Positions 5,843 to 10,642 of a DNA stretch of 64,000 nucleotides are shown here, piece by piece. The DNA is from Streptomyces cinnamoneus (GTDB taxonomy: Bacteria; Actinomycetota; Actinomycetes; Streptomycetales; Streptomycetaceae): contig NZ_PKFQ01000001.1 of assembly GCF_002939475.1 (NCBI RefSeq), positions 4,337,001 to 4,401,000 of the forward strand, read 5' to 3'. Position 1 is the stretch's first letter. The number at the start of each line of letters is the position of its first letter. Below the pieces are notes generated by a model. That model was not told the DNA's origin. It ran no database searches and saw only the letters and a program-made list of their open reading frames with translations. Made by a program: the position numbers and the translations under genes.

Positions 5843-5930
5843 TGGTTTTCGCGGAGGCGTCGGCCTCCCGGGCCGGGACAATGGGGGTGCGGCCGTGCCG
5901 AGCGGCGTATCCCGTCCAGGAAGAGAGACC

Positions 5931-7244
5931 GTGGCCAAGGGCAAGAAGCAGCCGGGACAGCCGGGACAGCCTGGGTCGTCGCAGCGGCCCGAGCGGCCCG
6001 ACGAGAAGGAGCTGGCACGGGACGTCGAGGCGGCCGTGCGGGGGCTGCGGGGGCTCGGCGGGGACGATCTCGACGACGCCGTCTACGCCGCCGCGTCCGC
6101 GCTGGCCGCGGCGCCCGCCGGCTGGGAGGCGGTCGGGCGCGCCGTCCTGCGCTGCGCCGAGGGGGCGGTGCGGCGCTGCTGGGAGGGCGGCTGGCAGCCG
6201 GCCGACGTCGTCCGGCTCGTACGCCGGGACCTCGCCCCCGGCCAGGAACGCTTCACCGTCGACGTGATCGCCGCCGAGGCCCGCCGGTACGCGCGGGACA
6301 CGCTCGCCCCGCGCTGGGCGGCGCAGCTGGAGGAGCTGGACGCCCGGGTCCGGTGGGAGGACACCGCCGCGACGGACGGCTTCCTTGAAGGGTTCGCGCG
6401 GCGGGAGCGGCTGAGCCGGTTCGAGACGGTGGCGTGCGCCCTGGGCGTGCTGCGGCTGATCGCGGGGCTGCCGCGGATCGGGGCGGTGGGGCCGCTGCCG
6501 GGGGCCGCCCACGTGACGGTGCCGGCCGCCGTGGAACCCCGCATGCTCGGCCGCATCCGGGCGCTGCTCGCCAAGGCCGAGTCCACGCAGTTCCCGGAGG
6601 AGGCCGAGGCCCTCTCGGCGAAGGCCCAGGAGCTGATGGCGCGCCACTCCCTGGACGAGGCGCTGCTGGCCGCCGCCTCCGACGCGCCCGCCGACGGGCC
6701 GGGCGCCTGCCGGATCGGCGTCGAGGGCCCGTACGAGTCCGCGAAGGCGCTGCTCCTGGACGCGGTGGCGGCCGCGAACCACTGCCAGGCCGTCTGGTCG
6801 GGCGAGTACGGATTCTCCACCGTCGTCGGCTTCGACGCCGACCTGGAACTGGTGGAGCTGATGTACACGTCGCTGCTGGTCCAGGCGACCACCGCGATGC
6901 GCCGTGCCGCCGACGACCACCACGCACGTGGCCGCTCCCGGCGCACGCGGGACTTCCGCGAGTCGTTCCTGATCGCCTACGCGGGCCGGATCAGCGACCG
7001 CCTGTCCGCCGCCGCGCACGACGTGGCGGCGGAGGACGACCGTCCGGAGGTGCTGCCGGTGCTGGCCGCCCGGGACGTGGCGGTGGGCGAGACGGCCGGG
7101 CGGCTCTTCCCCCAGACGACCTCACACCGGCTCAGGGGCCGCGACGCGGAGGGCTGGGCGCGGGGGACGGAGGCCGCCGACGCGGCGGTCATCGCGCGTG
7201 GCCGGCACGACCGTCCCGGCCGCCGCGGCCCGGGGGCGGCGTGA
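5931..7244 (+). CDS. DUF2786 domain-containing protein
   Basis: Soluble protein of about 437 residues and unknown biochemical role. The recognisable part is the DUF2786 helix pair in the middle, around RIRALLAKAESTQFPEEAEALSAKA, which in the family directs attention to HSLDEALL just after it. The N-terminal half is helix-rich with no named domain. The C-terminal part contains a histidine/arginine-rich stretch around DDHHARGRSRRTRDFRESF. GTG 5931 is chosen over GTG 5895 because AGGAAGAGAG lies a few bases upstream. It converges on the thioesterase gene; no partner genes suggest a pathway. Confidence 0.75.
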   Translation: MAKGKKQPGQPGQPGSSQRPERPDEKELARDVEAAVRGLRGLGGDDLDDAVYAAASALAAAPAGWEAVGRAVLRCAEGAVRRCWEGGWQPADVVRLVRRDLAPGQERFTVDVIAAEARRYARDTLAPRWAAQLEELDARVRWEDTAATDGFLEGFARRERLSRFETVACALGVLRLIAGLPRIGAVGPLPGAAHVTVPAAVEPRMLGRIRALLAKAESTQFPEEAEALSAKAQELMARHSLDEALLAAASDAPADGPGACRIGVEGPYESAKALLLDAVAAANHCQAVWSGEYGFSTVVGFDADLELVELMYTSLLVQATTAMRRAADDHHARGRSRRTRDFRESFLIAYAGRISDRLSAAAHDVAAEDDRPEVLPVLAARDVAVGETAGRLFPQTTSHRLRGRDAEGWARGTEAADAAVIARGRHDRPGRRGPGAA

Positions 7245-8247: not shown

Positions 8248-8340
8248 GGCCTCGCCGGGCGCACGCTCCCGGCGCCCGGGTGCGCGGCCTGGCGGGCACC
8301 GGCCCCACGGGGCATCCATGGGGACGGGAGGTGAGAGGAA

Positions 8341-8469
8341 ATGGTGCTTCTCGACCTGCAAGTCATGAAGCCGGGGGAGGGCGAAGAGGTGCTCCTGCAC
8401 TTCGGAGCGAGCGTCGGCGCGAGCGAGCTCAGCTTGCTGCTCTGCCACGATCCGGAGGAACCGGAGTGA
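8341..8469 (+). CDS. orphan SapB/AmfS-like class III lanthipeptide precursor
   Basis: A 42-residue peptide gene with a strong GGGAGGTGAGAGGA ribosome site directly before ATG. It begins MVLLDLQVM: the (L/F)LDLQ leader box of RamS and AmfS that class III synthetases (RamC/AmfT) recognise. Its core contains S-E-L-S-L-L-L-C-H-D (residues 28-37), the Ser-x2-Ser-x3-Cys pattern that becomes labionin/lanthionine, and nearly the S-x-x-S-L-L-L-C-x-D of the first SapB ring. Unlike RamS it has only one Cys and ends in an acidic tail (DPEEPE), so at most one such ring could form. No LanKC enzyme or ABC exporter is in the window, so maturation would have to occur in trans through a ram/amf locus elsewhere. 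An intact terminator follows at 8482-8506. Function as a morphogen or signal is inference. Confidence 0.75.
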   Translation: MVLLDLQVMKPGEGEEVLLHFGASVGASELSLLLCHDPEEPE

Positions 8470-8481
8470 CCGTGAGAGCGA

Positions 8482-8506
8482 GGGGGCACTCCGGGTGGGT
8501 GCCCCC
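8482..8506 (+). terminator. terminator after the RamS-like peptide gene
   Basis: Inverted repeat GGGGGCAC (8482-8489) and GTGCCCCC (8499-8506) with a 9-base loop, 13 bp after the peptide stop codon. It has no T run, as is usual in Streptomyces. Confidence 0.7.
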
Positions 8507-8807: not shown

Positions 8808-9593
8808 ATGCTGCGTGCGTTACGCACCCTCGGTCTCGCCGTTCTCGCGGCTGGCCTGACCCTCACCGCGACCCCGGCCGCGACAGCCGCCCCGGCCGCC
8901 GCCACCGCCCCCGCCCGGGAGCTCACGCCCGTCGGCGGCGGCACGGGGATCATCTTCCGGATGACCCCGACCCCGGAGGAGCGCCAGGGCTTCTACGTCT
9001 GCACCCTCACCGCCGTCGGCCGCGACAACGCCGGCAACCTGGTCGGTCTGACCAACGCCCACTGCTTCATCGACGAGAAGGGCAACAAGCTGGTCGGGGA
9101 GAAGGTCTACCGGGACACCTCTCCCGCCGGGACCGCGGCCGCCCCGGCCGACCTCAACGCCAGCCGCCCCGACCTGGAGACGGGCCCCATCGGCACCGTG
9201 ACCTCCGTCAGCACGCCCAACAACCTGCTGAACGCCGGACCCAAGGGCCTCGACTTCGCGGTCATCAAGCTGGACGAGTCGAGAGTCGCCCCCACCGCCA
9301 CCGTCGGCGGAGTGACCATCTCGTCGATCGGCGCCCCGCCCGCCAACGGCACCCGCATGTGCAAGCAGGGCCACCGGACGGGCCTGACCTGCGGCATCAA
9401 GCTGGGCACCCACGACATCTGGTTCACCCACCTCATCTGGACCAACGGCGGGGACTCCGGCTCCCCCGTGGTCAGCGGTCAGACGCTGGTCGGAAACGCC
9501 TGGGGCGCGCAGCACAGTTCGGCGATCCTCGACATCATCGCTGAGATGAACGCCAACGGCGGCGTCGGCGCGGGATTCCACCTGGCGACCTGA
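8808..9593 (+). CDS. secreted trypsin-fold serine protease
   Basis: Exported protein of 261 residues with a signal peptide (MLRALRTLGLAVLAAGLTL then an Ala/Pro/Thr-rich segment up to about residue 40). The chymotrypsin-fold triad is visible in order: His in LTNAHCF, Asp in LDFAVIKL, Ser in GGDSGSPVV. Two further Cys residues (MCKQGH and LTCGIK) may form a disulfide. Length without the leader suits a small extracellular protease with no pro-domain as long as that of alpha-lytic enzymes. AGGAAG stands 7 bp before the ATG. The substrate is unknown. Confidence 0.88.
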   Translation: MLRALRTLGLAVLAAGLTLTATPAATAAPAAATAPARELTPVGGGTGIIFRMTPTPEERQGFYVCTLTAVGRDNAGNLVGLTNAHCFIDEKGNKLVGEKVYRDTSPAGTAAAPADLNASRPDLETGPIGTVTSVSTPNNLLNAGPKGLDFAVIKLDESRVAPTATVGGVTISSIGAPPANGTRMCKQGHRTGLTCGIKLGTHDIWFTHLIWTNGGDSGSPVVSGQTLVGNAWGAQHSSAILDIIAEMNANGGVGAGFHLAT

Positions 9594-9994: not shown

Positions 9995-10642
9995 TCAGTC
10001 CTGGGCGGGTGCGACGCCGACAGGGCAGCTGACGCCCGTCCCGCCGATCCCGCAGTAGCCCGCCGGGTTCTTGGCCAGGTACTGCTGGTGGTACGCCTCC
10101 GCGTGGAAGAAGGGGGGCGCGGGGGCGATCTCCGTGGTGATCGGGCCGTAGCCCGCCGACGTCAGCACCGGCTGGTACGCCGTGCGCGAGGACTCCGCCG
10201 CCGACTGCTGGGCGGGGGAGTGGGTGTAGATCGCCGAGCGGTACTGGGTGCCCACGTCGTTGCCCTGGCGGTTGCCCTGCGTGGGGTCGTGGGACTCCCA
10301 GAAGACCTTGAGGAGGGTCTCGTACGGCACCACCGAGGGGTCGAAGACGACGCGCACCACTTCGGCGTGGCCCGTCAGGCCACTGCACACCTCCTCGTAG
10401 GCCGGGTGCTGGGTGCCGCCGCCCTGGTAGCCGACGAGGGTCGTCCAGACGCCCTCGGTCTGCCAGAAGATGCGCTCCGCGCCCCAGAAGCAGCCCAGGC
10501 CGAAGTCGGCCACCGCCAGGCCCTCGGGATACGGGGGCGCCAGCGGGTTGCCGAGCACCGTGTGGCGCTCCTGGAGGGCGAACTGCGGGGCGGGGCGGCC
10601 CTTGAGGGGCCCCTCGGGGTTCTGCTGGCGGTTCGGGGACAT
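9995..10642 (-). CDS. msrA: peptide methionine sulfoxide reductase A
   Basis: Repairs methionine-S-sulfoxide in proteins using thioredoxin. It is 215 residues, the E. coli MsrA length class. The catalytic motif GCFWG is at residues 50-54 with Cys51 as nucleophile. The C-terminal pair in [13 protein letters not shown] supplies resolving cysteines. [21 protein letters not shown] is the conserved MsrA block around the active site. It is apparently monocistronic, with the next minus-strand gene ending about 80 bp upstream. A GAGGAGAG ribosome site precedes ATG 10642. It fits the oxidative-stress theme at the far end of the window (AhpCD/OxyR), but the genes are not linked. Confidence 0.96.

Follow-up and report, generated by a model that had tools for sequence, protein, structure and literature searches.

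A stand-alone, one-ring precursor gene of the SapB/AmfS lanthipeptide family in one clade of Streptomyces

SapB/AmfS peptides help Streptomyces raise aerial filaments. The stretch of Streptomyces DNA analysed here (the window; 64,000 nucleotides, positions 4,337,001 to 4,401,000 of contig NZ_PKFQ01000001.1) contains at 8341-8469 a 42-codon gene that a first-pass annotation, made from the letters alone, described as an orphan precursor of this class III lanthipeptide family. The locus raises the question of whether this gene is a conserved member of the family and which LanKC enzyme could modify its product. The gene was found in ten related genomes, with no LanKC gene nearby in the carriers examined and always together with an AmfT-type LanKC elsewhere in the genome, and its peptide is most likely a second, one-ring substrate that AmfT would modify in trans, as judged from sequence.

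Identification of the precursor gene

Translation of the open reading frame gave MVLLDLQVMKPGEGEEVLLHFGASVGASELSLLLCHDPEEPE. Its position, the LLDLQ leader box, the SELSLLLC segment, the single Cys among the 42 residues and the ribosome-binding site were all as first described. The features of the gene, with residue identities averaged pairwise over seven members, are the following.

8341..8469, + strand: stand-alone, one-ring precursor gene of the SapB/AmfS family, 42 codons and stop (translation, NF033212, PF19402, relatives in nine further genomes)
8326..8334, + strand: Shine-Dalgarno sequence GGGAGGTGA, six bases 5' of the ATG, read directly
8341..8367, + strand: leader box MVLLDLQVM, class III LanKC recognition motif (78% identity)
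8401..8412, + strand: FGAS, start of the conserved stretch ahead of the core (alignment; FG invariant in seven members)
8422..8445, + strand: candidate ring-forming core SELSLLLC, of the form SxxSxxxC (75% identity)
8446..8466, + strand: acidic tail HDPEEPE, where SapB has its second ring (translation; tails of relatives short, variable and often acidic)
8482..8506, + strand: 10-bp hairpin shortly 3' of the stop codon (fold -22.7 kcal/mol)

The profile search that had been proposed as a check placed the peptide above the curated cut-offs of both NCBIfam NF033212 (SapB_AmfS_lanti; 28.8 bits, cut-off 25) and Pfam PF19402 (RamS; 29.3 bits, cut-off 24.3). The profile match spans positions 1-32 of 42, covering the leader and the first ring and ending where the second ring would begin. 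The nine relatives also exceeded the family cut-offs, with NF033212 scores of 29.7-36.4 bits. The class III leader motif LxLQ is present as LLDLQ and the ring motif as SELSLLLC; L3, L4, D5 and Q7 of the former and S28, S31, L33 and C35 of the latter are invariant in eight members. Two rings are typical of the family but not demanded by the models, and the peptide has residues for one only. SapB/AmfS clusters also place the precursor beside LanKC and ABC (ATP-binding cassette) transporter genes, but no LanKC was matched in the window. Two curated models, conservation at the same locus and the lack of a nearby LanKC thus support the description as an orphan RamS/AmfS-like class III precursor. 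The Prokaryotic Genome Annotation Pipeline, which uses NF033212, would probably name the gene SapB/AmfS family if it called it, and the family assignment itself is therefore not new.

The first-pass annotation had also given the gene its own terminator. A hairpin does follow the stop codon, and folding of five relatives gave one in each case (z -1.2 to -3.8), but that of the window lacks a T-run and its z-score taken alone is modest (-1.36); it is probably a terminator without T-run. Because it has no T-run, it was not listed by a simple scan for terminators of the T-run type, which returned nothing at the peptide gene. A sigma-70 promoter scan returned nothing for the gene either.

Conservation and distribution

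A scan of species genomes together with genus and family searches revealed the stand-alone gene in ten related genomes, the window's included; the nine further carriers are S. cinnamoneus, S. hiroshimensis, S. klenkii, 'Streptosporangium' nondiastaticum, S. roseoverticillatus and four others. Over seven members the linker (22% pairwise residue identity) and the tail (25%) vary freely, in contrast to the leader box and the core, as expected of a precursor of a ribosomally synthesized and post-translationally modified peptide. The first-pass annotation had staked its proposal on conservation of the frame in relatives at the same locus. Leader and core residues are indeed kept there, and synonymous divergence (dS) exceeds nonsynonymous divergence (dN) in every pair examined, with dN/dS of 0.26-0.81, rough values for such short sequences.

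An rpoB tree of 29 genomes, G120 not among them, groups all ten carriers in a single clade with support 0.999; some members of this clade were once classified in Streptoverticillium. Former Streptoverticillium names are on record for S. cinnamoneus, S. hiroshimensis and S. roseoverticillatus; for the remaining carriers, the host of the window included, it is the rpoB tree by itself that suggests a link to the whorl formers. Among 393 genomes sampled from the genus, seven carriers were found, all of them within the group of ten genomes (host counted) that have at least 95% rpoB identity to the host. This search scored 18 candidates per genome and left 28 weak matches without a stored locus untranslated. 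In the genomes sampled, the peptide is confined to one Streptomyces clade.

Genomic position

The gene lies in an orthologous interval shared by five genomes (the window, G614, S. cinnamoneus, G035 and G051), with a DUF2786 gene upstream and, where the contig extends, msrA and a cystathionine gamma-synthase-like gene downstream. Its surroundings in the window are as follows.

5895-7244: DUF2786 gene, upstream bound of the shared interval
8808-9590, + strand: Trypsin_2 gene for a predicted secreted trypsin-like protease, shortly downstream of the peptide gene
9995-10642: msrA, downstream bound of the shared interval

The genes inside the DUF2786-msrA interval differ between carriers. The copies of S. 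klenkii, S. roseoverticillatus and 'Streptosporangium' nondiastaticum share a second position, and those of S. hiroshimensis and G259 lie at other positions again; no recognisable copy of the peptide was seen in the msrA interval of S. hiroshimensis, G259, G304 or G219. DUF1330, next to which the first-pass annotation proposed to look for conservation, is not conserved with the peptide and was rejected as a functional neighbour: at its msrA locus S. hiroshimensis has DUF1330 but no copy of the peptide, and the flanking genes of the carriers differ. A plasmid origin was discarded, as the plasmid collection gave no tblastn match. The window had been said to hold neither synthetase nor protease; the first part stands for LanKC, but the Trypsin_2 gene contradicts the second. 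This gene has no close counterpart adjoining the peptide in other carriers.

Nine of the ten carriers encode a one-ring peptide. The stand-alone relative of G259 (L108, near 9866; C6:1531865) carries two ring motifs instead of one, with a similar short acidic tail, which indicates that ring number has changed within the stand-alone family.

LanKC enzymes of the host and of other carriers

No LanKC gene lies within about 8 kb of the peptide gene in the carriers examined. The search for the genome's LanKC, also proposed at the outset, revealed three LanKC genes, at 0.62 and 2.11 Mb and hence each more than 2 Mb from the peptide gene at 4.35 Mb. One of them (1165 bits) belongs to the canonical amfS-amfT locus, adjoining a transporter-like gene and a two-ring AmfS, MALLDLQSLESDESYSGGGHGGGSNASLLLCWSTASTVLCL (MALLDLQ...), which carries the same LLDLQ box as the peptide. 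The other two form a tandem pair with a two-component system and a radical SAM (S-adenosylmethionine) gene.

Each of the ten carriers has a canonical AmfT-type LanKC, although the gene is divided between contigs in one of them. The tandem pair is missing from G051, whose second LanKC aligns with AmfT over only part of its length, at about 30% identity; AmfT is therefore the enzyme type common to all carriers. Because AmfT is this sole common LanKC type and the S, S and C ring residues are kept, it is the best supported modifying enzyme. The equivalent LELQL motif is bound by the LanKC in the ThurKC system, where mutating it stalls processing (PMC10604976).

As to AmfS itself, ring one reads SLLSC in S. 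klenkii, S. hiroshimensis, S. roseoverticillatus, 'Streptosporangium' nondiastaticum and G051 (L047, L045, L048, L067 and L131, respectively) and SLLLC in the host group. The stand-alone peptide does not track this switch.

Comparison with known systems

SapB (RamS, S. coelicolor) and AmfS (S. griseus; NF033212, PF19402) share with the peptide an LDLQ-type leader, an SxxSLLLC first ring and a length of about 42 residues. In contrast to them, it has an acidic tail, lacks the second ring and the glycine-rich linker, and has no LanKC or ABC transporter genes next to its own. Durhapeptin (DurA/DurKC) has a leader of the same LLDLQ type and an enzyme that groups with RamC/AmfT, but it carries two labionin rings and is encoded in cis with durKC and durT (PMC13380574). 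The cis-encoded class III precursors of G264 and G086 (L109, L110; MTILDLQTMETAHHCG...SRLSLLLC) resemble the peptide in their LDLQ leader and one SxxSLLLC ring; however, their own LanKC and transporter genes adjoin them, the Cys is their last residue and they have extra Cys residues upstream. Noursin (NorA/NorKC) is also made from a class III precursor with one Cys, but has an LELQEL leader, labionin and His-butyrine crosslinks and a clustered gene (PMC10206099); its leader resembles that of the host tandem-LanKC locus, not that of the stand-alone peptide.

In another genus of the same taxonomic family, three tandem precursor copies of the form MALLDLQxMELP...STDCSNSSWLWCN were observed (L028; G484 C1 near 121774).

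Proposed maturation and role

The gene may be transcribed alone. An AmfT/RamC-type LanKC would bind the LLDLQ leader helix in trans and dehydrate Ser28 and Ser31, perhaps also Ser24, and one lanthionine or labionin ring would be closed onto Cys35. The FGAS region is a possible site of leader removal. Maturation and release would be completed by proteases and an exporter from other loci, most simply the ones that serve AmfS; unclustered proteases have precedents in the maturation of class III peptides (PMC10604976; PMC8960859). The product would be small and amphiphilic, its single hydrophobic ring followed by an acidic end; for the candidate core GASELSLLLCHDPEEPE minus two H2O the computed monoisotopic mass is 1801.819 ([M+2H]2+ 901.917). 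At the surface of aerial hyphae it may act as a second surfactant or signal beside AmfS. We consider this proposal as a whole, from AmfT-dependent maturation in trans to export and a surface role, to be probable though far from assured. Among the three functions first suggested, a second RamC/AmfT substrate has most support, and a role as a one-ring morphogen is possible but speculative.

Several observations weigh against the proposal. All ten carriers are related, so that common descent explains part of the co-occurrence with AmfT, and AmfT is in any case frequent among other streptomycetes. The linker has no AmfS glycine-rich stretch, and leader removal and export may therefore differ from those of AmfS. 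The peptide is more variable than the AmfS of the same species. Finally, the other three of the ten close genomes of the genus sample (G219, G304 and G375) gave no clear copy among the 18 candidates scored per genome; the gene is therefore not essential.

Alternatively, the peptide could be a decoy or regulator that acts through its leader, binding AmfT and so adjusting the maturation of AmfS, while the core yields no product of its own. The leader box is conserved as well as the core, and without a dedicated enzyme the peptide must share the enzyme of AmfS or act on it. However, a pure decoy would not need the ring S, S and C, invariant in eight members, and we regard this explanation, which fits the kept ring less well, as unlikely. 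The gene could also be left over from a duplication of AmfS, weakly constrained and with little or no expression, as the free drift of linker and tail, the several chromosomal positions and the three clade members in which it was not found would allow. The persistence of start, leader box, ring residues and stop in ten genomes, the excess of dS over dN in the pairs examined and the 3' hairpins in all copies folded make such a relic improbable.

The tandem LanKC pair, whose precursors have a noursin-like leader, could modify the peptide by itself or together with AmfT, as the pair is present in 9/10 carriers and in 0/18 other streptomycetes scanned. However, shared ancestry accounts for this co-occurrence, G051 carries the peptide without the pair, and the pair has precursors of its own, of the type [VM]SEILELQELEEE..WPC[SA]NS, in 7/7 genomes checked, whose leader (EILELQELEEE, LELQEL type) and core are unlike those of the peptide. 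We give this explanation little likelihood. The pair as sole dedicated enzyme, suggested by the first seven carriers, was rejected in view of these precursors and of G051.

At the tandem locus of the host (L017; C1:614000-633000), a small precursor, VSEILELQELEEEPPAQWPCSNSYHSTLGQV, sits between the two LanKC genes. Its leader resembles that of noursin NorA, but the Cys precedes the Ser residues in its core.

Significance

A search of the open-access literature gave no description of orphan or one-ring SapB-family precursors; relative to that literature, three features appear new: the gene is unlinked, its peptide pairs a single ring with an acidic tail, and in the genomes sampled it occurs in one clade only. 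A wider reading, which we hold to be unlikely, is that the verticillate (former Streptoverticillium) branch gave rise to a one-ring SapB-type gene whose product, matured in trans by AmfT alongside AmfS, would supply a second surface amphiphile or signal shaping the aerial architecture of that branch.

Mining for class III lanthipeptides starts at LanKC genes and looks beside them, and distant precursors are therefore missed by design. The existence of a conserved family of unlinked precursors suggests that a single LanKC may act on several substrates encoded at scattered sites. Small, easily deleted and, in the sample, confined to one morphologically distinctive branch, the gene offers a test for a one-ring SapB relative in aerial development.
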